Positions 1 to 34,085 of a stretch of DNA of 64,000 bases are shown in pieces. How positions within the stretch are numbered: the stretch's first letter is position 1; the number at the start of each line of letters is the position of its first letter. A program made the position numbers and the translations under genes. Below the pieces are notes generated by a model. The model worked only from the letters and a program-made list of their open reading frames with translations. It ran no database searches and had not been told where the DNA came from. The stretch comes from Sphingomonas abietis (lineage in GTDB: Bacteria > Pseudomonadota > Alphaproteobacteria > Sphingomonadales > Sphingomonadaceae): contig NZ_CP115174.1 in NCBI RefSeq assembly GCF_027625475.1, forward strand, positions 2,081,001 through 2,145,000, given 5' to 3'.

Positions 1-177
1 CGACCCATCGTCGTCTTCTGTCGGCGCTGCGAGGCGGAACGGGAGGCCGATACCAATTTTGCCTGCGTGACGTGTGGAAACTACGGAGTTCGACTCGTGG
101 GTTCGCAGGCTATGTCGGTCGAGAAGATGACATTGCGTAGCAGGGAAAACACGATGGACGAGAGCCATGGCCGCTGA
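1..177 (+). CDS. hypA: HypA, nickel insertion protein for [NiFe]-hydrogenase (C-terminal part)
   Basis: The reading frame is open from base 1 to TGA 175-177, so the N-terminus is missing. The 58 visible residues contain two CxxC pairs (CRRC and CVTC, 11 residues apart), the zinc site of HypA, followed by a short tail. HypA works with HypB to deliver Ni to hydrogenase large subunits. It sits directly before cooF, whose start overlaps its end by 11 bases. This suggests one transcript that comes from hydrogenase genes outside the window. The tail after the second CxxC is somewhat longer than in E. coli HypA. The call rests on the zinc motif plus the hyp context. Confidence 0.8.
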   Translation, partial: RPIVVFCRRCEAEREADTNFACVTCGNYGVRLVGSQAMSVEKMTLRSRENTMDESHGR

Positions 178-745
178 ATCCCAGGCAAGGCGTGAGAATG
201 TCATCATCTATGCCGATCCCGATCGGTGCATGGGGTGTCATTCCTGTGAGATCGCCTGTGCGGTGTCGCACGCGGAAGGGCATGACCTGTTCAGTGCCGT
301 TGCGGCCAGGCTGCCGCTCCAGCCGCGCAACCACGTCGTCAGCGTCGACGGCGTGACCATGCCGTTGCAGTGCCGCCAGTGCGAGGATGCGCCTTGCACG
401 GCGGTCTGTCCTACGGGCGCCTGCCGCCAGACGGACGGGATGGTCGAGATCATCGGTCAGCACTGCATTGGCTGCAAGCTCTGCGCGATGGTCTGCCCGT
501 TTGGTGTCATCACGGTGAAGGCAGAGGTTGCGGCCGATGGAACGGCGCTGACCAACCATGGCATCGCGAAGAAGTGCGATCTTTGCACTGACTGGCGCGC
601 AGAGACCGGGGCCGAGGAGACGGCCTGCGTGCAGTCCTGCCCGACCAAGGCGATCCAACTGGTCGATCTCGATGAGTATCGAAAGGCGCTGCGTGAGGCG
701 CGCGCCCGCGAGCTCGTCGAAGCAACCCGCCACATCCGTCTTTAG
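167..745 (+). CDS. cooF: CooF, four-cluster ferredoxin-like electron carrier of CO dehydrogenase
   Basis: The 192-aa protein carries cysteine groups for four [4Fe-4S] clusters: CMGCHSCEIAC near residue 21, CRQCEDAPC..C..C near 69, CIGCKLCAMVC near 104 and CDLC..C..C near 137-158. This is the layout of CooF/HycB-type polyferredoxins. CooF passes electrons from CooS to the membrane CO-induced hydrogenase. No signal peptide is seen, so it acts at the cytoplasmic face. It overlaps the end of hypA and lies 23 bases before cooS, as in the R. rubrum cooFSCTJ order. HycB- or DmsB-like subunits share this fold, but the neighbour cooS makes CooF the best call. Confidence 0.93.
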   Translation: MAAESQARRENVIIYADPDRCMGCHSCEIACAVSHAEGHDLFSAVAARLPLQPRNHVVSVDGVTMPLQCRQCEDAPCTAVCPTGACRQTDGMVEIIGQHCIGCKLCAMVCPFGVITVKAEVAADGTALTNHGIAKKCDLCTDWRAETGAEETACVQSCPTKAIQLVDLDEYRKALREARARELVEATRHIRL

Positions 746-768
746 AAAACGCGTCCGGAGCATCGATC

Positions 769-2769
769 ATGGCCTGCAACAACTGTTCTGATCCGTCCGC
801 AGATGCCTGTGCGAACCACATGCTCGGCGTGACGAAGGCCGCCGGCATCGCGACCGCTTGGGACCGTTATAAGGCGCAGCAGCCGCAATGTGGGTTCGGT
901 AGCACCGGTCTGTGCTGCCGTATCTGTCTTCAGGGCCCATGCCGGATCGATCCGTTCGGCAATGGCCCGCAATATGGTGTCTGCGGTGCCGATCGCGACA
1001 CGATCGTGGCGCGGCACCTGGTGCGGATGATGGCCGCGGGTACGGCCGCGCACTCGGAGCATGGGCGCCACATCGCACTCGCGCTCTTGCATGTCGGAGA
1101 GCACAAGCTGCACGACTATGCGGTCCATGACGACGAGAAGCTGCATGCGGTAGCGGCGCGACTTGGCGTCGCGACCGAGGGGCGCGAGCAGTCTGATATC
1201 ATCCACGAGCTGGCCGAGGTGACCCTGGGCGACTACCAGAACCAGGATTACGACAAGCCCTGCCACTGGATATCCTCCTCGCTGCCGGCGCCGCGCCTGA
1301 AGAAGTTAAGCGACCTCGGTCTGTTGCCACACAATATCGATGCCATGGTTGCCCAGTCCATGTCGCGCACGCACATGGGATGTGACGCGGAACCGGAGAA
1401 TCTGATCCTTGGCGGACTGCGCGTGGCGCTGGCCGACCTCAACGGCGAAATGCTCGCGACCGAGTTGTCCGACGTGCTGTTCGGTACGCCCAAGCCGGTC
1501 GCAAGCGTCGCCAATCTCGGCGTACTCAAACGCAACGCTGTGAACGTCGCGGTCAATGGGCATAATCCGCTGCTCAGCGAGATCATCTGCAACGTCGCGG
1601 CCGATCTGCATGACGAGGCAGTGGCGGCGGGCGCGCCCGAAGGCATCAACATCGTCGGCGTCTGCTGCACCGGCAACGAATTGATGATGCGCCACGGCGT
1701 ACCGCTGGCCACGAATTATCTGTCCCAGGAACTTCCGATCGCGACGGGCGCGCTCGAGGCGATGATCGTGGACGTTCAGTGTGTCATGCCATCGCTGCCG
1801 CGGATTGCCGCCTGCTTTCATACCAAGATCATCACCACCGACAATCAGAACAAGATCACCGGCGCGACGCATATCGAGTTCGAGGAGGAGAGAGCGAGCG
1901 AGATCGCGCGTCAGATTCTCCGCGTCGCAATCGACAACTTCAAGCGCCGCGATCCCAAGCGCATCGACATCCCGGACGAAAAGCAGGAGGCGATCGTCGG
2001 CTTCAGCACGGAAGGGATCGTCGCCGCGCTGGCAACGGTGGATGCCGCGGACCCGCTGAAGCCGATGGTCGACAATATTGTCAGCGGCGCGATCCAGGGC
2101 GTCGTGCTCTTCGCGGGCTGCAACAACGCCAAGATCCAGCAGGATCATAATTATCTGACGATGGCGAAATCGTTAGCTAAGCGGAACGTTCTCGTGGTCG
2201 CCACCGGCTGCGCATCGGGCGCCTTCGCCAAGGGCGGCATGATGACGAGCGCGGCGACAGACCAATATTGCGGCGAGGGTCTGCGTGGCGTGTTGACGGC
2301 GATCGGAGAGGCGGCGGGGCTGGGCGGCCCACTGCCGCCGGTGCTGCACATGGGGGCCTGTGTCGACAACAGCCGTGCCGTCGCGCTGGTAACGGCGCTC
2401 GCCAACAAGCTTGGCGTCGACATCTCGGACCTACCGGTTGTCGCCAGCGCGCCCGAAGCGATGTCCGAAAAGGCGATGGCGATCGGCACCTGGTCGGTAG
2501 CGATCGGCCTGCCGACCCATCTTGGCACGGTGCCGCCCGTCGTCGGCTCCGACGTGGTGACCGGCCTCATCACCGATGCGGCCAAGGCGCAGCTCGGTGG
2601 CTATTTCATCGTCGAGCCCGATCCGGAAAAAGCGGCGGACAGTCTGTTCGATGCCATTCAGGAACGGCGCGCGGGCCTTGGGCTCTCGACTGCGCCGCGC
2701 CGCCCGGCATTGTCGCCGACGTACCGCTTCGCCCCGTCGCGGCCCGCACCCGCCCTGCTGCCGTCATGA
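769..2769 (+). CDS. cooS: CooS, anaerobic Ni-Fe carbon monoxide dehydrogenase
   Basis: The 666-aa enzyme oxidises CO with water to CO2, two protons and two electrons. All known ligands are present: Cys41 and Cys49 (D cluster); Cys50, 53, 58 and 72 (B cluster); and His265, Cys300, Cys338, Cys451, Cys481 and Cys531 (Ni-Fe-S C cluster). The C-cluster residues fall exactly at the R. rubrum CooS numbers. The proton-channel His95/98/101 and Lys568 in SEKAM are also present, so the protein should be active. The C-terminus carries about 25 extra Pro/Ala/Arg-rich residues. The stop overlaps the cooC start (ATGA). No acetyl-CoA synthase subunit is visible, which points to energy conservation rather than carbon fixation. 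Confidence 0.97.
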   Translation: MACNNCSDPSADACANHMLGVTKAAGIATAWDRYKAQQPQCGFGSTGLCCRICLQGPCRIDPFGNGPQYGVCGADRDTIVARHLVRMMAAGTAAHSEHGRHIALALLHVGEHKLHDYAVHDDEKLHAVAARLGVATEGREQSDIIHELAEVTLGDYQNQDYDKPCHWISSSLPAPRLKKLSDLGLLPHNIDAMVAQSMSRTHMGCDAEPENLILGGLRVALADLNGEMLATELSDVLFGTPKPVASVANLGVLKRNAVNVAVNGHNPLLSEIICNVAADLHDEAVAAGAPEGINIVGVCCTGNELMMRHGVPLATNYLSQELPIATGALEAMIVDVQCVMPSLPRIAACFHTKIITTDNQNKITGATHIEFEEERASEIARQILRVAIDNFKRRDPKRIDIPDEKQEAIVGFSTEGIVAALATVDAADPLKPMVDNIVSGAIQGVVLFAGCNNAKIQQDHNYLTMAKSLAKRNVLVVATGCASGAFAKGGMMTSAATDQYCGEGLRGVLTAIGEAAGLGGPLPPVLHMGACVDNSRAVALVTALANKLGVDISDLPVVASAPEAMSEKAMAIGTWSVAIGLPTHLGTVPPVVGSDVVTGLITDAAKAQLGGYFIVEPDPEKAADSLFDAIQERRAGLGLSTAPRRPALSPTYRFAPSRPAPALLPS

Positions 2770-3569
2770 AGGTCGCGGTCTCCGGCAAGGGTGGAGTGGG
2801 CAAGTCGACGATCGTCGGCATGCTGGCCCGCGCCCTGAACGACGATGGCTGGAAGGTGATGGCCATCGATGCGGATCCGGACGCGAACCTGGCCTCGGCG
2901 ATCGGCATACCCGCTGATCGGATGACGGAGCTGAAGCCGATCTCGGCGATGACGGAACTCGCGCTGGAGCGTACGGGCGCGACGCCCGGTTCGGGCAGTT
3001 TCTTCATTCTCAATCCAAAGGTGGATGACATTCCCGATCGCTTCTCGGTCGAGCACGAAGGCATCAAGCTGCTGGCGATGGGAACGGTCGATCATGCCGG
3101 AGCGGGCTGTGTGTGTCCGGAGCATGCCCTGGTCCGGACGCTGATGCGGCACATCCTCACCCGTCGCCGCGAGGCTGTACTGCTCGACATGGAAGCCGGT
3201 ATCGAGCATTTCGGGCGCGGCACGGTCGAGGCCGTTGATCTTCTCGTCATCGTCGTGGAGCCCGGTATGCGCAGTTTCCAGACCGGCGCGCAGATCGAGC
3301 GCCTGGCCGCGGAACTGGGCATCAAGCGGGTCTGCTACGTTGCCAACAAGGTGGCGTCTGCCGAAGACGAGGCGTTCGTTCGCACACAGGCGGGCGACAA
3401 GGATCTACTGCTGGTGGCGCCATTCGATCAGGACATCCAGGCTGCGGATCAAGCAGGCGAGTCCTGCTACGATCGAAGCGAGGCTTTCCGCGTGCGTGCG
3501 CACGGCTTTGCCAAGGAAGTGGTGCGCAGGGTTGTTGGACAAAAGGAAGTGAACGATGTGCTTGGGTAA
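2766..3569 (+). CDS. cooC: CooC, Ni-insertion ATPase for CO dehydrogenase
   Basis: This 267-aa MinD/ArsA-type P-loop ATPase starts MKVAVSGKGGVGKST, a deviant Walker A with the signature Lys. A CVC motif near residue 113-115 matches the CxC pair that binds Zn or Ni between two CooC monomers. CooC uses ATP to load Ni into the C cluster of CooS. The start at 2766 overlaps the cooS stop. The frame remains open far upstream, but that part is only the shadow of cooS. The 3' end overlaps cooT by 14 bases. Confidence 0.95.
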   Translation: MKVAVSGKGGVGKSTIVGMLARALNDDGWKVMAIDADPDANLASAIGIPADRMTELKPISAMTELALERTGATPGSGSFFILNPKVDDIPDRFSVEHEGIKLLAMGTVDHAGAGCVCPEHALVRTLMRHILTRRREAVLLDMEAGIEHFGRGTVEAVDLLVIVVEPGMRSFQTGAQIERLAAELGIKRVCYVANKVASAEDEAFVRTQAGDKDLLLVAPFDQDIQAADQAGESCYDRSEAFRVRAHGFAKEVVRRVVGQKEVNDVLG

Positions 3570-3759
3570 AATCGTGCTGACGGGCGCAGGAACGGATCGC
3601 CAGGAAATCGGTGATGTCGTCGACATCCGCATGGACGACAACGGCGTCAGCGTATCGACGCTGTTCGGCGAGGAGCATCGCTTCGAGGACGTCGCGATCG
3701 AGCATATCGCGATGCGGTCCGGGGTGACCGTGTCGCTCGTCGCGCGGGTGGCGGCATGA
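3556..3759 (+). CDS. cooT: CooT, small nickel-binding CODH maturation protein
   Basis: The 67-aa protein begins MCLGKIVLT and shares the compact HypC/CooT barrel. In R. rubrum CooT the second-position Cys binds one Ni per dimer, and Cys2 is present here. The region TLFGEEHRFEDVAIEHI also resembles CooT rather than HypC; the true hypC is further down at 7751. It overlaps cooC by 14 bases and cooJ by 4 (ATGA), keeping the cooC-T-J order known from R. rubrum. Confidence 0.85.
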   Translation: MCLGKIVLTGAGTDRQEIGDVVDIRMDDNGVSVSTLFGEEHRFEDVAIEHIAMRSGVTVSLVARVAA

Positions 3760-4064
3760 CGATTGGCGAGGACGAACGCGCACTACAGCGCTTCACGGTG
3801 ATGGTAGAGCATCTGCTCGATCACACCAGGAGCCACGCAATGGAGCTGGAGGGCGGACGGGCGCTATTCGGCCCTGACTCGCCGGCACTGCCCTTGCTCG
3901 ACAAGGCCCTTGCCGAACTCGGCACCGCTCACGCCTCGCTGGAGGCGCTACTGGGTCATGTCGATGGCGGCCGGACAGCAGGCGATGGTCACCGACTCGC
4001 GCATGGCCATGCACATGATCATAGTCACGAACATGGCAATGGCCATACGCACCCGCATTCCTGA
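3756..4064 (+). CDS. cooJ: CooJ-like histidine-rich nickel-binding protein
   Basis: The 102-aa protein has a helical N-terminal part (about residues 1-68) and a C-terminal tail with eleven His among its last 24 residues (HGHAHDHSHEHGNGHTHPHS at the end). CooJ of R. rubrum has the same design and position and buffers Ni for CODH activation. Sequence identity in the N-terminal half cannot be judged by eye, so the call rests on architecture and gene order. Its start overlaps the cooT stop. The next gene begins 22 bases downstream. Confidence 0.75.
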   Translation: MTIGEDERALQRFTVMVEHLLDHTRSHAMELEGGRALFGPDSPALPLLDKALAELGTAHASLEALLGHVDGGRTAGDGHRLAHGHAHDHSHEHGNGHTHPHS

Positions 4065-4086
4065 CGGCTCACCGGAGTCGGTCCCT

Positions 4087-5673
4087 GTGAGGATTTGCGG
4101 TGCCGGTCTCGGCCATGATGCGGCGGTCGCACTGATTGAAGACGGGCGGCTGGTCTTCAGTGTCGAATTGGAGAAGCTTGGCAATCGGGAGCGCTTCGCA
4201 CGGGCTGTCGATGAGCCGGGCTTCATCGCGGGCATACTGACCGATTTTGGCTATTGCCCCGAGGATATCGACATTCTCTCCGTCGATGGCAGCGATGCCG
4301 GGTTGGCCGAAGCATGGGGGCCATATCCCATGCCGGCGATCATCGAACGGCCCGGGCACACCCTAGCCAACATCGCCGCGGCCTGGTCTGCCAGTCCGTT
4401 CGCGCAGCGGCGCGAGGCGGCTCATATCCTGGTTTGGGATGGATCGGGCCTGCCCGAACTGCATCATCTCGATCCGGCTACCCAAACGATCCGGCATCTC
4501 GGTGCGATCGGCAGGCTTCCCGGGCGAGCCTATGCCGCCGCCGGGCAATATTTCGCAGCCTTCGAAATGGCGGCAGCGGGATCGCAAGAGAGGCTGGACG
4601 TCGCCGGGAAGCTGATGGCCTTCGTCGGGCTTGGCACGGCCGATCCCCATCTTGTCGATATGATCGAGCAATGCTGCATCGACGCCTTCCATAGGCCTTC
4701 GCCGCATGCGTCGGATGCAGACCGCCTCGAGGGCATGTTCGAAAGCATCGCGATGCGATCGGCCGGAGTGTCCGGAGAAGATATTCTCGCCGCCTTTCAC
4801 CTGTTCGTGGAGCATAGCCTCACCAGAGGTCTGCGCCGGCTGCTTGGGCCATCTTCGAGACGCAACCTTTGCATAGCTGGCGGCTGCGGTCTCAACATCA
4901 AGTGGAACAGCGCCATCCGCGCCTCGGGCCTCTTCCAGCATGTCTGGGTGCCGCCCTTTCCGAACAACAGCGGCGCCGCGATCGGCGCTGCCGCTGCGGC
5001 GTTCCTTGAGCATGTGGGCTTCCGCGCCATCGACTGGTCGGTCTATAGCGGACCGTCCTTGCCGGACGCGCAAGGGGCGCTGATGCCGGGTTGGCGATCC
5101 CGGCCTTGCGAGGCGCCGGAACTGGCAAGGCTGCTGGCCGAGGGCGCGATCGTCGCGCTTCTGGACGGACGTGCCGAAATCGGGCCACGCGCGCTGGGGC
5201 ATCGCAGCATCGTCGCGGCGCCTTTTCCCCTGTCGATGCGGGACAGGCTGAACGGCATCAAGCGCCGCGAGCCCTATCGCCCGATTGCGCCCGTCTGCAT
5301 CCTCGATCGCGCAGCGGAGGTTTTCGATCCGGGAATGGAAGATTCCTACATGTTGTTCGAGCAGCGTGTGCGGCCGGAATGGCGCGGACGCATTCCCGCG
5401 GTCGTGCATATCGATGGCACGGCCCGCGTGCAGACGGTAGAACGCACCGCGCCGTCGATGATCGCGCGGCTTCTTATCGCCTATGAGGAACAGACCGGCA
5501 TTCCCATATTGTGCAACACCAGCGCCAATCGCCCGGGCCGCGGGTTCTTTCCTGACCTCCAGTCTGTGCTGGACTGGGGAGAGGTGGACCATGTCTGGTA
5601 TGATGGTAGGCTTTTCGAGCGCGACCGTACGCCGGGCGGGCTGGATTCGCATGCGCTCGCCGCCGTCGCCTGA
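4087..5673 (+). CDS. NodU/TobZ-family carbamoyltransferase inside the hyp operon
   Basis: From GTG 4087 (GGAG about 11 bases upstream) the product is 528 aa; the longer open frame from 3910 overlaps cooJ and is unlikely. The N-terminal half is Kae1/HypF-like ([13 protein letters not shown] at 118, GGCGLN near 268). The C-terminal half is the YrdC-like domain of O-carbamoyltransferases ([11 protein letters not shown] near 364, [21 protein letters not shown] near 474). This family makes carbamoyl-adenylate from carbamoyl phosphate and ATP. In the Kae1 metal site the HxxxH is H91-T-L-A-N95, and the distal Asp is Asn294 (PNNSG), so two of four usual ligands are Asn. The position between cooJ and hypB suggests a part in making the hydrogenase cyanide ligands. 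Another acceptor cannot be excluded. Confidence 0.85.
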
Positions 5674-5699
5674 TCGCCGGCGCCGAAAGGAGATCAACG

Positions 5700-6593
5700 A
5701 TGTGTAGCGTTTGCGGATGCGGACAGGAGCGAATTGCGGGCGAGCCTCACAGCCACCCCCATCTTTCCACGCATGCCGATCATGATCATGCGGTGATCGA
5801 CGACGACCATGCCGCGCTCCACGCCGCAGGCGTTCCGCATGTCCACTCGCACGATCATGTCGAGATCAAAGCGGGTGTTCTCGATTATGGCGCGGGCCAT
5901 GCCGGTGTGGCCGTACCCGGCCTGCCGCAGGAGCGGGTGGTGGCGATCGAGCAGGCCGTGCTGGGGCATAATGACGCGCTTGCGGAGCGCAACCGGCAGG
6001 CGTTCGCAGCCGACGATCTGCTGGTTCTGAACCTTCTGTCCAGCCCCGGATCGGGCAAGACGACCCTGTTGTGCGAAACCGTTCGCGCGATGCGGGGGCG
6101 GGCGCCGGTCGCGGTCATCGAGGGCGATCAGCAGACCAGCTTCGATGCCGATCGCATCCGTGCGGCGGGCGCACCCTCCGTCCAGATCAACACCGGCAAG
6201 GGATGCCATCTCGATGCGGCCATGGTGGCGCGCGCGGTCGAGACGCTGGCGCCCGCGCGGGGCAGCATCCTGTTCGTGGAGAATGTCGGCAACCTCGTCT
6301 GCCCGGCGGCCTTCGATCTGGGCGAGGCGGCCAAGGTGGTCATCCTCTCCGTCACCGAAGGCGAGGACAAGCCGCTCAAATATCCGGACATGTTCGCGGC
6401 CGCCGATCTCCTGCTGCTCAACAAGATCGATCTTTCCCCTCATGTCGATTTCGATGAAGAGCGCTGCCTCGAACTGGCGCATCGGGTCAATCCGTCGCTT
6501 CCCGTTCTCCGGCTTTCCGCGCGGACCGGCGATGGCATGGACGCCTGGCTCGATTGGATCGGCGCGCGCCAGCGGGAACGGGCCACGGCATGA
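5700..6593 (+). CDS. hypB: HypB, nickel-binding GTPase for [NiFe]-hydrogenase maturation
   Basis: The 297-aa protein opens MCSVCGCG, the high-affinity CxxCGC nickel site, followed by a His/Asp-rich stretch to about residue 53 that can store Ni. The GTPase core has the P-loop SSPGSGKTT near residue 113, a metal-binding Cys-His in GKGCHLD, and NKID for guanine specificity. A strong AAAGGAG site precedes the ATG. The stop overlaps the hypF start (ATGA). With HypA it loads Ni into the hydrogenase precursor. The His-rich part is longer than in E. coli, and with CooJ this gives the operon two Ni-storage proteins. Confidence 0.96.
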
Positions 6594-7720
6594 TCGCGGC
6601 TTTGCCTCGGGCCGCTCGTATCGAGGGGGACGCGCAGCCGCTGGTGCTGCCGCTTCCCAAACGGTTTCCCGTCGTGCTCGGCCTTGGTGCCTTCCTGAAA
6701 AATACGACCACACTCATCGATGGCGATCAGGCCTATGTCAGCCGGGATGCCGGCCATACCGACAGCGTGGGCAGCATCGTCGCCATGGGGGATCGCATGG
6801 AGCGTTTTCTTGAGCAGGCTTCCGGCCCGCCGGCGGCGATCGCGCACGATCTGCATCCTGATTTTCCGTCTACCCGGCTGGCGCTCCGGCTGGCATCGGA
6901 AAGGGGTATCCCGGCGTTGCCAGTGCAGCATCATCACGCCCATGTCGCGGCCGTTGCCGCCGAGCATGGGGTGACGGGTGCGCTGCTGGGCCTGGCGTTC
7001 GATGGGTTCGGGCTGGGGCCTGCGCGGGAGGCATGGGGCGGCGAACTGCTGCTGTGCGGACGTGGGGACTGCCGGCGGCTGGGCGCGCTGGTGCCGCTGT
7101 CCCAGCCGGGCGGGGATATCGCCGCGCGCGAGCCATGGCGCATGGGGGCTGCCGCCCTGCAAGCGGTCGGTCGATCCGGCGACATCGCCTCACGCTGGCC
7201 CGATCGTCCCGCTGCGAAGCATTTGTCCGCGATCATGCGCCGGGAGCTCAATAGTCCGCCGACATCATCAGCCGGTCGCCTGTTCGATGCCGCGTGCGGC
7301 CTGCTCGACGTCCATCCCGTCGCGGCGTTTGAAGGGCAGGCGCCGATGGCGCTGGAGGCGCTCGTCGCGGCTCCCGAAGTGCTGCCGGGTGGCTGGCGGA
7401 TCACCGACGGACAACTCGACTTTCGCCCGTTACTCGCCGTTCTGGCGGATCTGGGCGATCCCGCGCGTGGCGCGGACCTGTTCCACGGCACGCTGGCGGC
7501 GGGCGTGGCCGACTGGGTGGTGCGGCATGTCGACGAGATGGTCCTCCCGCCGCTCGAAATCGCCTTTTCGGGCGGCTGCTTCTACAATCGGGTGTTTTCG
7601 GCGGATCTCGCCGACCGGCTGGGCGAGGCGGGGCTTCGCGTCTTGCGCCCCGAACGGCTGGGCCCGGGTGACGCTGCGATCAGTCTCGGTCAGGCCTATG
7701 TTGCGGCGCTTTCGCTGTGA
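6590..7720 (+). CDS. hypF: HypF reduced to the Kae1-like carbamoyltransferase domain
   Basis: From ATG 6590, overlapping the hypB stop, the product is 376 aa, about half the length of full HypF (around 750). It begins at the Kae1-like part ([27 protein letters not shown]) and lacks the acylphosphatase, zinc-finger and YrdC domains. The metal ligands are intact: His114, His118, Asp138 (FDGFG) and Asp361 (GDAAISLGQ). HypF normally moves a carbamoyl group from carbamoyl-adenylate to the C-terminal Cys of HypE. This protein could do only the last transfer. The missing adenylation step may be supplied by the gene at 4087. A short HypF1 is known in Cupriavidus necator. Confidence 0.9.
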
Positions 7721-7750
7721 TGCGACGCGCGGCGAAAGGAGAATAAGACG

Positions 7751-7969
7751 ATGTGTCTCGCCGTCCCGGCCGAGGTGATGGAGCTTATGCCAGGGGGCAT
7801 GGCCCGCGTCAGCGTGGGCGGCGCCGAGCAGACGGCGAGCCTGGTCCTCGTGCAGGGAGTGGGGGTGGGAGATTACGTCCTCTTGCACGTTGGTTTCGCG
7901 ATTAGCCGGATCGACATCGCCGAAGCCCATGCAACCATGGACCGGCTTGCCGAACTGGCTGGCCAATGA
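7751..7969 (+). CDS. hypC: HypC, hydrogenase Fe-ligand assembly chaperone
   Basis: The 72-aa protein begins MCLAVPAEV with the essential Cys2 of HypC and has the family's small beta-barrel pattern (VGDYVLLHVGFAI). It binds HypD and the hydrogenase large subunit while Fe(CN)2CO is assembled. An AAAGGAG site lies just upstream. The stop overlaps the hypD start (ATGA). Confidence 0.95.
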   Translation: MCLAVPAEVMELMPGGMARVSVGGAEQTASLVLVQGVGVGDYVLLHVGFAISRIDIAEAHATMDRLAELAGQ

Positions 7970-9096
7970 ATCTCATCGAACAGTTTCGTGATGGCGGGCT
8001 GGCCCACGCATTGTGCGACGCGATCGCCGCCGCCTGCCGGCCGGATCGTGATTACAGGTTGATGGAGGTTTGCGGCGGGCACACCCATGTCATCGCGCGC
8101 TATAGTCTGGAAGATTTGCTGCCACCGCAGGTCCGGCTGGTGCATGGTCCCGGCTGCCCGGTCTGTGTCCTGCCTGCCGGAAGGATCGACCTCGCCATTG
8201 GCCTCGCCCTCGATCGGGGTGTCATCCTGTGTACCTATGGCGACATGATGCGCGTGCCCGGATCCCACCGGGCCACGCTGACCCGCGCGCGGGCGGCGGG
8301 CGCGGATATCCGCATGGTTCTCTCGACACTCGATGCGCTCCGGATCGCGCACGAAAATCCGGCGCGGGAGGTGGTGTTCCTCGGCATCGGTTTCGAGACG
8401 ACCGCGCCCGCGACGGCGGTGGCCCTGAAGGTGGCAAGGAGCGAAGCGCTGGCGAACTTCAGCGTGCTCAACAACCATCTGCTGACGGCACCCGCTTTGC
8501 GGGCGGTGCTGGGTGAGGGCGATGAGACGACGCTCGACGGGTTGATCGCGCCAGGTCATGTCTCGACGATTATCGGAACCCGGCTCTACGACGAGTTCGC
8601 CGAACGCGGGCAGGGTGTATATGTCGCGGGTTTCGAGCCGCTCGATCTGCTGGAGGCGGTGCTGCTGCTGATACGGCAGATCAACGATCGGGCGCCTCGG
8701 GTAGACAATGGCTATTCGCGCGCCTTGACGGCCGAAGGCAACCCGCGCGCACTCGCCGCTATGGCGGAGACGATGCCTGAGCGCCGGGGGTTCGAATGGC
8801 GTGGTCTGGGTATATTGGCGGACAGCGCCACGCAGATCGGCGAGGATTTTGCCGCCTTCGACGCCGAGCGCCGCTTCGATCTTTGCTACGAACCGGTGCC
8901 CGATCCGAAATCCTGCATCTGCGCCGACATTGTGCGCGGGGCGCGGCGGCCCGAAGCCTGTAAATTGTTCGGCACCGTTTGCACGCCGGATGATCCGATC
9001 GGCCCCTGCATGGTCTCCAGCGAAGGCGCTTGCGCGGCGCAGTGGCGATTTGGCCGTCATCGTCTGGCCCCGACCGCGGGCGCTGTCGCCGCATGA
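7966..9096 (+). CDS. hypD: HypD, [4Fe-4S] scaffold for Fe(CN)2CO assembly
   Basis: The 376-aa protein has the three HypD signatures: EVCGGHTH near residue 30, GPGCPVC near residue 60, and GFETTAP near 142. The C-terminal Cys cluster CICADIVRG..C..FG..C...C..C binds the [4Fe-4S] centre. HypD, with HypC, receives the two cyanide ligands from HypE. Length and motifs match the family. It overlaps hypC upstream and hypE downstream by ATGA junctions, so the three should be translated together. Confidence 0.97.
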   Translation: MNLIEQFRDGGLAHALCDAIAAACRPDRDYRLMEVCGGHTHVIARYSLEDLLPPQVRLVHGPGCPVCVLPAGRIDLAIGLALDRGVILCTYGDMMRVPGSHRATLTRARAAGADIRMVLSTLDALRIAHENPAREVVFLGIGFETTAPATAVALKVARSEALANFSVLNNHLLTAPALRAVLGEGDETTLDGLIAPGHVSTIIGTRLYDEFAERGQGVYVAGFEPLDLLEAVLLLIRQINDRAPRVDNGYSRALTAEGNPRALAAMAETMPERRGFEWRGLGILADSATQIGEDFAAFDAERRFDLCYEPVPDPKSCICADIVRGARRPEACKLFGTVCTPDDPIGPCMVSSEGACAAQWRFGRHRLAPTAGAVAA

Positions 9097-10157
9097 GCGA
9101 GCCGATCACCAGCAAGCGGGGCAACTTCGCAGCCCGATCGCTCGATCTGGAAGCGGGGCGGGTCGATATGAACCACGGCGGTGGCGGGCGCGCCATGGCC
9201 CAACTCGTCGCCGAACTGTTCCAGGCCGAATTTAACAACCCTTTCCTTGCGCAGGGCAACGACGCCGCCCTGCTGCCGTCAGCCGCGGGTCAATTGGTGA
9301 TGACGACAGATGCCTATGTGGTGTCGCCTCTCTTCTTCCCCGGCGGCGATATTGGCTCGCTCGCAGTGCATGGCACGATCAACGACATCGCGATGGTCGG
9401 CGCACGGCCGCTTTATCTCTCCGCAGCTTTTGTCATCGAGGAAGGTCTGCCGCTGGCCGATCTTGCCCGCATCGTCGCGAGCATGGCCAGGGCCAGCCGC
9501 GAAGCGGGCGTGCCCGTGGTGACCGGAGACACGAAAGTCGTCGAACGGGGCAAGGCCGATGGGCTTTTCATCACGACGACCGGGGTCGGAACCGTGCCCG
9601 AAGGCATAATATTTTCCGGCGACCGCATCCGCTCCGGCGATGCGATTCTTCTTTCGGGTTCGATCGGAGATCATGGCGTCGCGATCATGTCGGCGCGGGA
9701 GGGGCTTTCGTTCAATGCTCCGATCGAGAGCGACAGCGCCGCGCTGCACGACCTCGTCACCGCCATGATCGCAGCGGTGCCGGAGATCCGCTGCCTGCGC
9801 GATCCCACGAGGGGCGGCCTCGCGGCGACGCTCAACGAACTGGCGACCCAATCGGAATTGGGGTTCGTGATCGAGGAGACGGCGATCCCGATCAATCCCG
9901 TCGTGCGCGGAGCATGCGAAATCCTCGGCCTTGACCCCCTCGGCATCGCCAACGAAGGCAAGCTGATCGCATTCTGTCCACCAGAACATGCGGCGATGCT
10001 GCTTTCCGTCATGCAGGCACACCCGCTGGGACGGGATGCGGCGATCATCGGTACGGCCGGTCAAGATCCTAGAAACTTCGTGCGGCTGCGCACGTCACTT
10101 GGAACGGAGAGGGTCGTCGATTGGCTGTTTGGGAGCCAGCTTCCGCGCATCTGCTGA
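9093..10157 (+). CDS. hypE: HypE, carbamoyl dehydratase making the cyanide ligand
   Basis: The 354-aa AIRS-family ATPase starts at ATG 9093 overlapping the hypD stop; the frame open from 9030 is ignored. It has GGGGRAMAQ, the ATP-binding GNDAALLP and DPTRGGLAATLNE, and ends in PRIC. The terminal Cys is carbamoylated by HypF and then dehydrated to thiocyanate. The intact C-terminus means a working carbamoyl donor is expected, which supports the functional reading of the short HypF and the carbamoyltransferase. It is the last gene of the hyp/coo operon. A 222-bp spacer follows. Confidence 0.97.
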   Translation: MSEPITSKRGNFAARSLDLEAGRVDMNHGGGGRAMAQLVAELFQAEFNNPFLAQGNDAALLPSAAGQLVMTTDAYVVSPLFFPGGDIGSLAVHGTINDIAMVGARPLYLSAAFVIEEGLPLADLARIVASMARASREAGVPVVTGDTKVVERGKADGLFITTTGVGTVPEGIIFSGDRIRSGDAILLSGSIGDHGVAIMSAREGLSFNAPIESDSAALHDLVTAMIAAVPEIRCLRDPTRGGLAATLNELATQSELGFVIEETAIPINPVVRGACEILGLDPLGIANEGKLIAFCPPEHAAMLLSVMQAHPLGRDAAIIGTAGQDPRNFVRLRTSLGTERVVDWLFGSQLPRIC

Positions 10158-10379
10158 GCGGTTTCCGGTCTCCGGGAACATGCCGGTGGCATCCAGCTGC
10201 ATTCAGCGTCGAACTATCTTCACGCGACCATTTCGCCGGAATTCGCGGGTCAATTATGCGCAAAGATACGAAGTTCCATTCGCGACAAGCTGGCGATCGT
10301 GAGCATGTGACAATCTAAGCCGGCATCTGGTCCTGATGGCCTGTCAAATCGTAACCCGATCCGCGTGAAGGAGTGTGCA

Positions 10380-12776
10380 TTGGACGATCATCACGCCCAT
10401 CGAACCGGGTGGTGCTCGAACGCGCGAAATGCCGTGGCGGAAGCACAGGATCCCGTGTGCGGGATGCGCGTCGATCCCGATACGGCGAAGCATCAAGCCG
10501 ACTATCGCGGCATCGACTATCATTTCTGCAGTGCCGGCTGCCGGACGAAGTTCATGGCCGATCCGGAACGGTACCTGCGCCCGCCCGAGGCGGGGGCGCC
10601 GACCTCGCCGCAGACAGGTCCGGTGTCGGAATGGACATGCCCGATGCACCCCGAGATCCGACGGGCGGGACCGGGCACCTGCCCGCTGTGCGGGATGGCG
10701 CTGGAGCCGGCGGAGCCGGGCGCGGAAGAGGGGCCGAACCCCGAGCTCACCGACTTCACCCGCCGCCTGTGGATCAGCGGCTTGCTGGCCGTGTCGCTGC
10801 TGGTGATATCGATGGGTGGGGAAATGATGGGCTTGCGTCTCGTTTCCCCGGCCTGGTCCGCCTGGGTGCAGCTCGCGCTCACCGCACCGATCGTGCTCTG
10901 GGCGGCGCGCCCCTTTTTCGAACGCGGATGGGCGTCGCTGCGGTCGCGCCACTACAACATGTTCACGCTGGTCTCGATCGGCGTCGGTGCCGCATTCCTC
11001 TACAGTCTTTTGGCGACGGTGGCGCCCGGCCTCTTCCCGTCGACCTTCCGCGATCATGGCGGCATGGTGCCCGTCTATTACGAGGCGGCAGGCGTCGTCG
11101 TGGCCCTGGTGCTTCTCGGACAGGTGCTCGAGCTGCGCGCCCGGGCAGCGACGGGGCGCGCTATCCGGGCGCTGCTCGATCTTGCACCGAAGTTGGCGCG
11201 GCGGATCGGCGCCGATGGTGTGGAACAGGAATTGCCGGTGGCCGCTATCGCGCGGGGGGACAGGCTGCGCGTGCGCCCGGGCGAGGCAATTCCGGTCGAT
11301 GGCGAGGTCGTCGACGGTCGCTCACAGGTCGATGAAGCGATGCTGACCGGCGAGCCTGTGCCTGTGCTCAAGAGACCCGGTGACGCGGTAACCGGCGGCA
11401 CGGTGAACGGCACGGGAAGCCTGGTCATGGAGGCGCGCGCGGTCGGATCGGAGACCATGCTCGCGCGCATCGTTGCGATGGTCGCGCAGGCGCAGCGCAG
11501 CCGCGCGCCGATCCAGGCCGTGGCGGATCGTATTTCCGGGTGGTTCGTGCCGCTCGTGGTCCTGGTGGCTCTTGCTACCTTCATCATCTGGGCCCTCGCG
11601 GGACCGGAGCCGCGCTTCGGCCATGCCCTTTTGAACGGTATCGCCGTGCTCATCATTGCCTGTCCCTGCGCACTGGGGCTGGCGACGCCGATGTCGATCA
11701 TGGTCGGAACGGGGCGTGGTGCCCAGGCGGGCGTGCTGGTCAAGAATGCCGAGGCCCTCCAGACGCTCGACGCTGTCGATACGCTCGTCATCGACAAGAC
11801 CGGCACGTTGACTGAGGGCAAGCCCAGGCTGATCGCGGTGGAACCCGCGGGCGCATTCGATGCGGACACGTTGCTCGCGCTGGCTGCGGCACTCGAGACG
11901 CGGTCAGAGCATCCGCTCGGGTTGGCCATCGTCGCGGGCGCACACGAGCGTGGTCTCTCGCTCGATACGGTCGAGAATTTCGAATCGCATACGGGCATGG
12001 GGATCAGTGGCAGGGTTGGCGACCATTTGGTCGCGATCGGGAATGCCGCGCAGATGCGCCATGCAGGTGCGGATATGGTGGCGCTCGAAGGAGCCGCGGG
12101 GCGGCGTCAGGCCGCCGGCGCGGGCGTGGTTCTCGTCGCTATCGACGGCAGCGCTGCCGGGCTGCTCGCGGTCGCCGATCCGATCAAGGCCTCGGCCCAT
12201 GATGCCGTTCAGGCGCTTCATGCCGAGGGTTTGCGCATCGTCATGCTGACCGGCGACAGCCAGGCCACGGCGGATGTGGTCGCCAGCACGATCGGGGGAA
12301 TCGGCGAGGTTCATGCTGACCTCAAACCTGAGGACAAAGCGCGCATCGTCGGCGACCTCAAGACGGCCGGCGCGCGGGTCGCGATGGCCGGAGATGGCGT
12401 CAACGACGCGCCCGCGCTCGCCGCGGCCGATGTCGGCATCGCGATGGGGACGGGCGCCGACGTTGCGATCGAAAGCGCCGGGCTGACCCTGACCAGCGGA
12501 GATCTCGCGGCGATGGTCCGCGCCCGCCGGCTCGCCCGTTCGACCATGGCCAACATCCGTCAGAACCTGTTCTTCTCCCTCCTGTTCAACGGCATCGGCG
12601 TACCGATTGCAGCGGGCGTCCTTTATCCGGTCGCCGGCATCCTGCTTTCGCCGATGTTCGCCGGTGCCGCCATGGCCCTGTCTTCCGTCACCGTGGTCGG
12701 CAACGCATTGCGGTTGAACGGGGTGCGGCTTGACAGGGCACGCCGCGACCATCGGTCCGGACGTGCTGGATGGTAG
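10380..12776 (+). CDS. copA: P1B-type copper-exporting ATPase with YHS and metal-binding N-terminal domains
   Basis: A TTG start at 10380 with AAGGAG six bases upstream gives 798 aa; a GTG at 10365 is possible. The N-terminus has a YHS domain (DPVCGMRV...FCSAGC) and a heavy-metal-binding domain (CPMHPE...[10 protein letters not shown]) instead of classic HMA domains. Then follow eight expected membrane helices, the actuator TGE, ACPCALG in TM6, DKTGTLT, the HP motif and GDGVNDAP. The C-terminal helices carry the Met-Ser pattern of Cu(I) pumps. It probably exports Cu(I) from the cytoplasm. It follows hypE but has its own ribosome site. Confidence 0.92.
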
Positions 12777-33857: not shown

Positions 33858-34085
33858 GTGCGCCGTGTCAAGGCGGCGCTTTCCAGTGGGTGAGAATCCC
33901 ACCCGGCAATATGCTCCAACCGGAAGCAACCGGGGCAGGCATGGAGGTGACGAAGTGTCTGAAGCCCCCGGATGACGGTCACGTAGGTGACCGTGCGAGT
34001 GTGCAGGCCGCAACGTGAGTGAACGCTGAGCAATCCTCGAAAAGGTCGTTGTGTGGGCCGACCCAGCCGGACTTCTGGGGAAGGC
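33858..34085 (+). mobile_element. 5' fragment of a group II intron
   Basis: The segment starts GTGCGCC, the usual 5' end of bacterial group II introns. It continues with domain-I-like stems (GGTGGGTGAGAATCCCACC-type hairpin near 33888-33904; GGAGGTGACGAAGTGTCTG; GAGTGAACGCTGAG). No reverse transcriptase and no domain V hairpin are visible, so only the first ~230 bases survive. The call is from sequence resemblance only. Confidence 0.5.

Follow-up and report, generated by a model that had tools for sequence, protein, structure and literature searches.

Full-length HypF proteins (TIGR00143), such as those of Escherichia coli and Thermococcus kodakarensis, combine acylphosphatase, zinc-finger and YrdC parts with a Kae1-like domain that holds four metal ligands. 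Cupriavidus necator H16 has, besides a HypF2 resembling the E. coli protein, a HypF1 that has been described as one domain of three (PMC9100943) and as unusually truncated (PMC5350229). In the available portion of the former text, truncated HypF1 is said likely to require carbamoyl-adenylate, the supply of which is only guessed at, and carbamoyl-adenylate is thought perhaps sufficient only in aerobic cells, HypF1 seeming inactive anaerobically (PMC9100943). Here we describe a 64,000-nucleotide stretch of the Sphingomonas abietis genome (contig NZ_CP115174.1, positions 2,081,001–2,145,000; hereafter the window), in which a short, Kae1-only HypF and a NodU/TobZ-type carbamoyltransferase with a degenerate metal site are encoded in one coo–hyp gene run. 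The preliminary description of this DNA had read the two proteins as a divided HypF; we confirm the pairing itself, find the proposed relay from carbamoyltransferase to HypF to HypE partly supported, and consider it on balance probable, judging from sequence, that they form a two-protein cyanide-ligand pathway in which the carbamoyltransferase makes carbamoyl-adenylate and the short HypF transfers the carbamoyl group to Cys354 of HypE.

The window's HypF shares with the full-length proteins the Kae1-like domain with four ligands, the hyp operon setting and a HypE ending in PRIC, but the acylphosphatase, zinc-finger and YrdC parts are missing. It is truncated as C. necator HypF1 is, with the difference that no carbamoyltransferase is described with HypF1 in the available parts of the two papers (PMC9100943, PMC5350229). 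The carbamoyltransferase has the Carbam_trans_N and Carbam_trans_C domains and the intact YrdC motif of the class III O-carbamoyltransferases NodU, TobZ and GdmN, from which it differs in its ligand set (HNDN for HHDD), in having about 30 fewer residues before the first His and in its coo–hyp setting. A division of labour between a separate YrdC protein that makes a carbamoyl-type adenylate (TsaC/Sua5) and a separate Kae1 protein that transfers it (TsaD) is described in the available part of a paper covering the biosynthesis of N6-threonylcarbamoyladenosine (t6A; PMC9654439). There, however, the intermediate is threonylcarbamoyl-AMP and the acceptor is tRNA, and the window's carbamoyltransferase, unlike the YrdC protein of the t6A system, still has an altered Kae1 half of its own.

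Results

Both open reading frames lie where they had first been placed:

4087–5673, + strand: NodU/TobZ-type carbamoyltransferase gene, 528 aa, GTG start, matching PF02543 and PF16861
6590–7720, + strand: short hypF, 376 aa, Kae1-like domain only, matching HypF_C and HypF_C_2 above cut-off

The matches to PF02543 (Carbam_trans_N) and PF16861 (Carbam_trans_C) place the carbamoyltransferase in its family, and its closest named relatives are rhizobial NodU proteins at about 43–46% identity; on the NodU equivalog NF041651 it scores only 560 bits against a cut-off of 1000. The iron ligands of GdmN are given as H133, H137, D156 and D333 in the available text (PMC9633730). When the family profile was aligned to 7vyj, these corresponded to H91, N95, D118 and N294, so that two of the four ligands are Asn in place of the two-His/two-Asp set of the NodU/TobZ type. 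An alignment of 50 sequences (44 NodU-type, five of the carbamoyltransferase's own clade, and P0081) has His in the N95 column and Asp in the N294 column in 44 of the 44 NodU-type sequences, and Asn in both columns in all five clade members. That clade, supported at 100/100 in the tree, comprises the window protein and four homologues (P0002–P0005) that are 65–78% identical to it, and because the Asn pair is common to sequences as far apart as these it is not a matter of chance. Its sister, P0081 (support 96/99), has Ala, Asn, Glu and Asp at the ligand positions, the first His being gone, the second replaced by Asn and D118 by Glu; the P0081 gene sits on a 5,847-base contig. The first metal His stands at position 91 (102 in P0004) compared with 121–139 in the 44 NodU-type sequences, which means that the stretch preceding it is shorter by some 30 residues.

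The YrdC-like half is intact, as had been proposed. Its site motif, KxR...SxN (PMC9654439, available part), is present as K392, R394, S479 and N481, residues that are invariant throughout the alignment. The ratio of non-identity between the Kae1 and YrdC halves is 1.52 within the clade and 1.67 (standard deviation 0.27) over 611 NodU-type pairs; both halves are therefore constrained much as in NodU, with no sign of decay.

TIGR00143 matches the window's HypF over positions 380–740 of 741 only, at 207 bits against a cut-off of 466, in keeping with the loss of the acylphosphatase, zinc-finger and YrdC parts. PF17788 and PF22521 match above cut-off and an HxxxH motif with two Asp ligands is present, as expected of a Kae1-like domain. 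All four metal ligands are kept (H114, H118, D138 and D361), the first three being invariant and D361 at least 90% conserved among 50 short HypFs, in agreement with the ligands first ascribed to this protein. It groups with P0122–P0124 in a quick tree (Shimodaira–Hasegawa-like approximate likelihood ratio test, SH-aLRT, 96). HypE ends in PRIC, so that the acceptor Cys354 is present.

Two of the findings that had been named as counting against a relay were Asn residues lying outside the ligand positions, which the alignments above exclude, and a full-length hypF elsewhere. The window is part of a single 4.43-Mb contig in a genome that is 99.99% complete, and no full-length HypF was found in the complete genome with TIGR00143 at E values up to 10; the matches were the short HypF, one Sua5-type protein and one stand-alone acylphosphatase-like protein. 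PF01300 finds one protein, in a 410-aa frame, judged by its size to be Sua5, and PF16861 finds the carbamoyltransferase and one stray match (E 0.09) with internal stops. Taken together, these searches leave the carbamoyltransferase as the only candidate that these families show for a second maker of a carbamoyl-type adenylate.

Relatives of the carbamoyltransferase, HypF and HypB were taken from the best 120 of 2180, 2644 and 7989 proteins, respectively. Carbamoyltransferase P0004, short HypF P0122 and HypB P0244 are each encoded on a contig of 255,649 bases, and P0005, P0123 and P0242 each on a contig of 18,419 bases, equal-sized contigs being taken as one and the same, with gene order and distance there not seen. 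The 3,560-base contig that encodes both P0124 and P0243 leaves no room for a carbamoyltransferase gene, and the contigs of P0002 and P0003 measure 2.6 and 2.2 kb. Among 289 class and 397 family genomes, no carbamoyltransferase of the window's clade was found besides that of G000 (full-length matches at most 37% identical). The pairing thus extends to the window, two assemblies and some fragmentary contigs, and may be paralleled in a second group of degenerate carbamoyltransferases described below.

The remaining genes of the run are as follows, those from cooF to hypE all lying on the + strand with intergenic gaps of −14 to +30 bases; the carbamoyltransferase gene stands between cooJ and hypB, and short hypF between hypB and hypC:

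Upstream of hypA (L002): cooM, cooK, cooL, cooX, cooU and cooH
1–177, + strand: 3' end of hypA (124 aa), which starts 198 bases before the window
167–745, + strand: cooF, 4Fe-4S electron carrier (Fer4 families)
769–2769, + strand: cooS, catalytic subunit of anaerobic carbon monoxide (CO) dehydrogenase (TIGR01702, 820 bits, cut-off 478)
2766–3569, + strand: cooC, CbiA-type ATPase (PF01656)
3556–3759, + strand: cooT, 67 aa (PF10133 CooT above cut-off)
3756–4064, + strand: cooJ-like gene, 102 aa with 15 His and a His-rich C-terminus
5700–6593, + strand: hypB, nickel-incorporation GTPase (TIGR00073 above cut-off)
7751–7969, + strand: hypC, 72 aa (TIGR00074 and PF01455 above cut-off)
7966–9096, + strand: hypD (TIGR00075 above cut-off)
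9093–10157, + strand: hypE (TIGR02124 above cut-off)

The coo names other than cooS and cooT are ones that we presume from gene order and homology. The cooJ-like protein gave no match in Pfam and NCBIfam profile searches, and the NuoB-, NuoI-, NuoH- and NuoD-like matches are CooL, CooX, CooK and CooH in turn. CooH matches Complex1_49kDa and, weakly yet above cut-off, NiFeSe_Hases (PF00374), and it has the two CxxC motifs (CSLC and CVSC) expected of a [NiFe] large subunit; the Hyp proteins of the window therefore presumably serve a CO-linked hydrogenase. A hyp set including hypF also clusters near coo in Rubrivivax gelatinosus, and the word 'carbamoyl' is absent from the available main text of the paper on that cluster (PMC4257681). 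Directly 3' of hypE is a gene for a copper/heavy-metal P-type ATPase (10365–12776; TIGR01511 and TIGR01525 above cut-off), a NicO-type high-affinity nickel transporter is encoded upstream of the coo operon (L002 7093–8370, minus strand), and a group II intron match lies at 33884–34018 (RF02003, 106.8 bits). An Rfam scan of the whole window and a repeat search of positions 1–12000 gave nothing relevant to the operon.

A short HypF had been known to the preliminary description from Cupriavidus, to which it proves not to be confined. HypF is present in 21 of 289 genomes of the class draw, as six short (G000, G043, G112, G021, G153 and G251), 13 full-length and two of uncertain frame (G124 and G227, too uncertain to class), and in 89 of 397 genomes of the phylum draw. 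Of 199 genomes from the order of G043, 81 have HypF: 61 short, 18 full-length and two unclassified (G886 and G1083), where 'short' means that TIGR00143 or blast finds no N-terminal half (G1053 was classed from frame length alone). Kae1-only HypF is therefore no peculiarity of Cupriavidus but a common protein, and in this order it is the prevailing form. Kae1-only HypFs with an N-terminally fused HycI-type hydrogenase maturation protease (PF01750 with HypF_C and HypF_C_2) were also seen:

L203 (G725) 9731–11323, minus strand: protease–HypF fusion
L204 (G707) 8986–10587, minus strand: protease–HypF fusion
L205 (G701) 9166–10899, minus strand: protease–HypF fusion

A carbamoyltransferase, scored as presence of PF16861, accompanies 26/28 short or intermediate HypFs but only 22/52 full-length ones in the combined class and phylum set (p 8e-6), the 52 excluding G740, G894, G957, G877, G989, G843, G686, G920, G946, G841 and G996. 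In family f178 the figures are 11/11 and 5/12. Within the order of G043 they are 51/61 for short HypF, 14/18 for full-length HypF and 70/118 for HypF-free genomes, short differing from HypF-free at p 0.001. A protein-query search of the class draw undercounts carbamoyltransferases, having missed the one in G051 that the profile found.

TIGR00143 was run on 32 genomes (28 short or intermediate, G000 and three full-length) to see whether the N-terminal half of HypF has a gene of its own, and it revealed none. The 29 genomes without a full-length HypF showed the C-terminal part plus matches placed like acylphosphatase, Sua5, TsaD or carbamoyltransferase, with the sole exception of G708, where positions 1–54 and 314–740 are matched in one 616-aa frame. 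Nor does a carbamoyltransferase gene stand beside every short hypF. Among neighbourhoods of up to 20 kb around hypF in 78 of the 81 order genomes (all but G886, G1053 and G1083), one was near only in G1172 and G1146. There it lies about 3 kb away from hypC and 6 kb from hypF, on the strand opposite hypCDE, and so does not form one run with them. The surroundings of 20 short or intermediate HypFs from other groups showed none. Two HypFs encoded on Azospirillum plasmids carry full-length annotations.

Degenerate ligand sets recur among the carbamoyltransferases of short-HypF genomes. In the class draw they occur in three of six such genomes and in none of 26 others read (p 0.004), these being the closest to the window's carbamoyltransferase among 79 positive genomes and including G227. 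Counting losses other than a D/E exchange, six of 55 carbamoyltransferases with complete columns from short-HypF genomes have lost a ligand (G000 HNDN, G251 THDN, G043 LHDR, G1172 and G1146 RHDD, G1050 HQDD), compared with 0/50 from full-HypF and HypF-free genomes and 0/11 where HypF status is undetermined; five more were incomplete, and the columns of L093 and L152, which are divergent sequences, are less sure. With 49 of 55 unaltered, most carbamoyltransferases of short-HypF genomes are canonical. By genome the contrast is 6/46 against 0/49 (p 0.011), in an uneven sample to which 20 extra carbamoyltransferases were added for short-HypF genomes and six for others, so that the class draw is the cleaner comparison. 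Those of G043, G1050 and G1146/G1172 form one long-branched group (SH-aLRT 93; the tree was a quick one and unusual sequence composition was flagged), in which the general-base His is also lost in G043 and G1146/G1172 and the YrdC motif is retained; in L256 (G1172) and L257 (G1146) Arg replaces both the general base and the first metal His.

Discussion

The mechanism that we favour begins with a NodU-derived carbamoyltransferase whose own Kae1-like transfer site is altered, two of the four ligands being lost. Its YrdC-like half would convert carbamoyl phosphate and ATP to carbamoyl-adenylate, the Kae1-only HypF would take this intermediate and carbamoylate HypE at its C-terminal Cys354, and HypE would dehydrate the carbamoyl group to thiocyanate for HypCD. 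Such a relay would account for the alteration of the Kae1 site of the carbamoyltransferase while its YrdC site is kept, for a HypF without a front half, and for the two proteins travelling together. As truncated HypF1 may lack carbamoyl-adenylate anaerobically (PMC9100943, available part), an anaerobic CO-linked hydrogenase would, we infer, profit from a dedicated source. No title among the matches listed from the open-access literature pairs a carbamoyltransferase with a short HypF.

Several observations weigh against this mechanism. Ten of the 61 short-HypF genomes in the order of G043 have no PF16861 protein; completeness is at least 97% for seven (G1120, G1153, G1166, G1178, G1184, G1190 and G1218) and 63–81% for three, and short HypF without a carbamoyltransferase occurs in G858 and G1026 too. 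HypB, HypF, HypD and HypE of the carbamoyltransferase-free G1184 and G1190 are 62–70% identical to the window's, and the relay leaves the short HypFs of all such genomes unexplained. G1091 (L258) provides a natural comparison for the window: hypABCDE comes after cooMKLXUH, a short hypF lies on the opposite strand, and the 19.5 kb examined contain no carbamoyltransferase gene, though one is present elsewhere in that genome. Carbamoyltransferase rates in the order are alike with short and full HypF (p 0.73), so that a genome-wide rule tying the two together is rejected: in the co-occurrence survey that the preliminary description had called for, short and full HypF contrast strongly in the class and phylum set and do not differ within the order. 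The ten genomes also imply that the pairing belongs to this lineage and does not reflect a general splitting of HypF in two. In TobZ and HypF, moreover, the intermediate passes by a channel between a protein's own domains, and no release to another protein is described in the available part of that account (PMC9654439). Finally, the carbamoyltransferase retains, as H10, the His that serves GdmN as general base (H27), and Asn is able to bind metal, so that the carbamoyltransferase may keep some transfer activity.

These last points bear on an alternative in which the carbamoyltransferase still transfers carbamoyl through an altered or metal-free site, though to a different acceptor (either a small molecule or a Coo/CO dehydrogenase maturation protein), the HypF donor coming from elsewhere. 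Its relatives use hydroxyl acceptors (GdmN, PMC9633730; TobZ, PMC9654439, in the available parts; NodU, P0026, by its given name), its Kae1 half is as constrained as that of NodU, its gene stands where cooFSCTJ meets hyp, and the seven near-complete genomes manage without it. We nevertheless consider this unlikely, given that two of the four ligands are replaced, that some 30 residues before the first His are missing and that none of the genes in the run was recognised as serving the synthesis of a different acceptor. The same replaced ligands and lost residues might suggest a functionless, decaying NodU relic; this is highly improbable, since the Asn pair is identical in all five clade members, the YrdC motif is intact, both halves are normally constrained and the frame is open within a tightly packed run.

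Short HypF could also be self-sufficient, as it has to be wherever a genome lacks the carbamoyltransferase, using free carbamoyl-adenylate, a side reaction of Sua5 or carbamoyl phosphate directly; the carbamoyltransferase would then only add to the supply, for instance when cells grow anaerobically on CO. Kae1-only HypFs in the ten genomes without a carbamoyltransferase argue for this, as does the single PF01300 (YrdC) protein in 21/21 alphaproteobacterial short-HypF genomes tested, with two in each of six others (G858, G1026, G716, G688, G768 and G730); at least seven near-complete short-HypF genomes have neither a carbamoyltransferase nor a second YrdC protein. The suggestion that carbamoyl-adenylate may be enough only aerobically (PMC9100943, available part) points the same way. 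According to the available text, however, C. necator HypF1 showed no activity in an E. coli strain mutated in hypF, where its synthesis could not be established either (PMC5350229). We know of no enzyme that would provide such a supply, and think self-sufficiency quite unlikely.

For the favoured relay, the degenerate carbamoyltransferases elsewhere raise a wider prospect. Carbamoyltransferases may repeatedly have lost their transfer site in bacteria with Kae1-only HypF, becoming carbamoyl-adenylate synthases that feed HypF, from NodU in the window, in the fast-evolving common-type group of G043, G1050, G1146 and G1172, and perhaps in G251. We put this forward tentatively, as a proposal that may well be wrong; if true, carbamoyltransferases converted in this way would supply the donor that has been missing for at least some truncated HypFs. 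The near-complete genomes that have a single YrdC protein and no carbamoyltransferase sharpen the puzzle of the HypF donor. For the supply of Kae1-only HypFs the window offers a concrete, co-encoded candidate enzyme: a testable source of carbamoyl-adenylate for a truncated HypF, in which the competing transfer site is itself altered.

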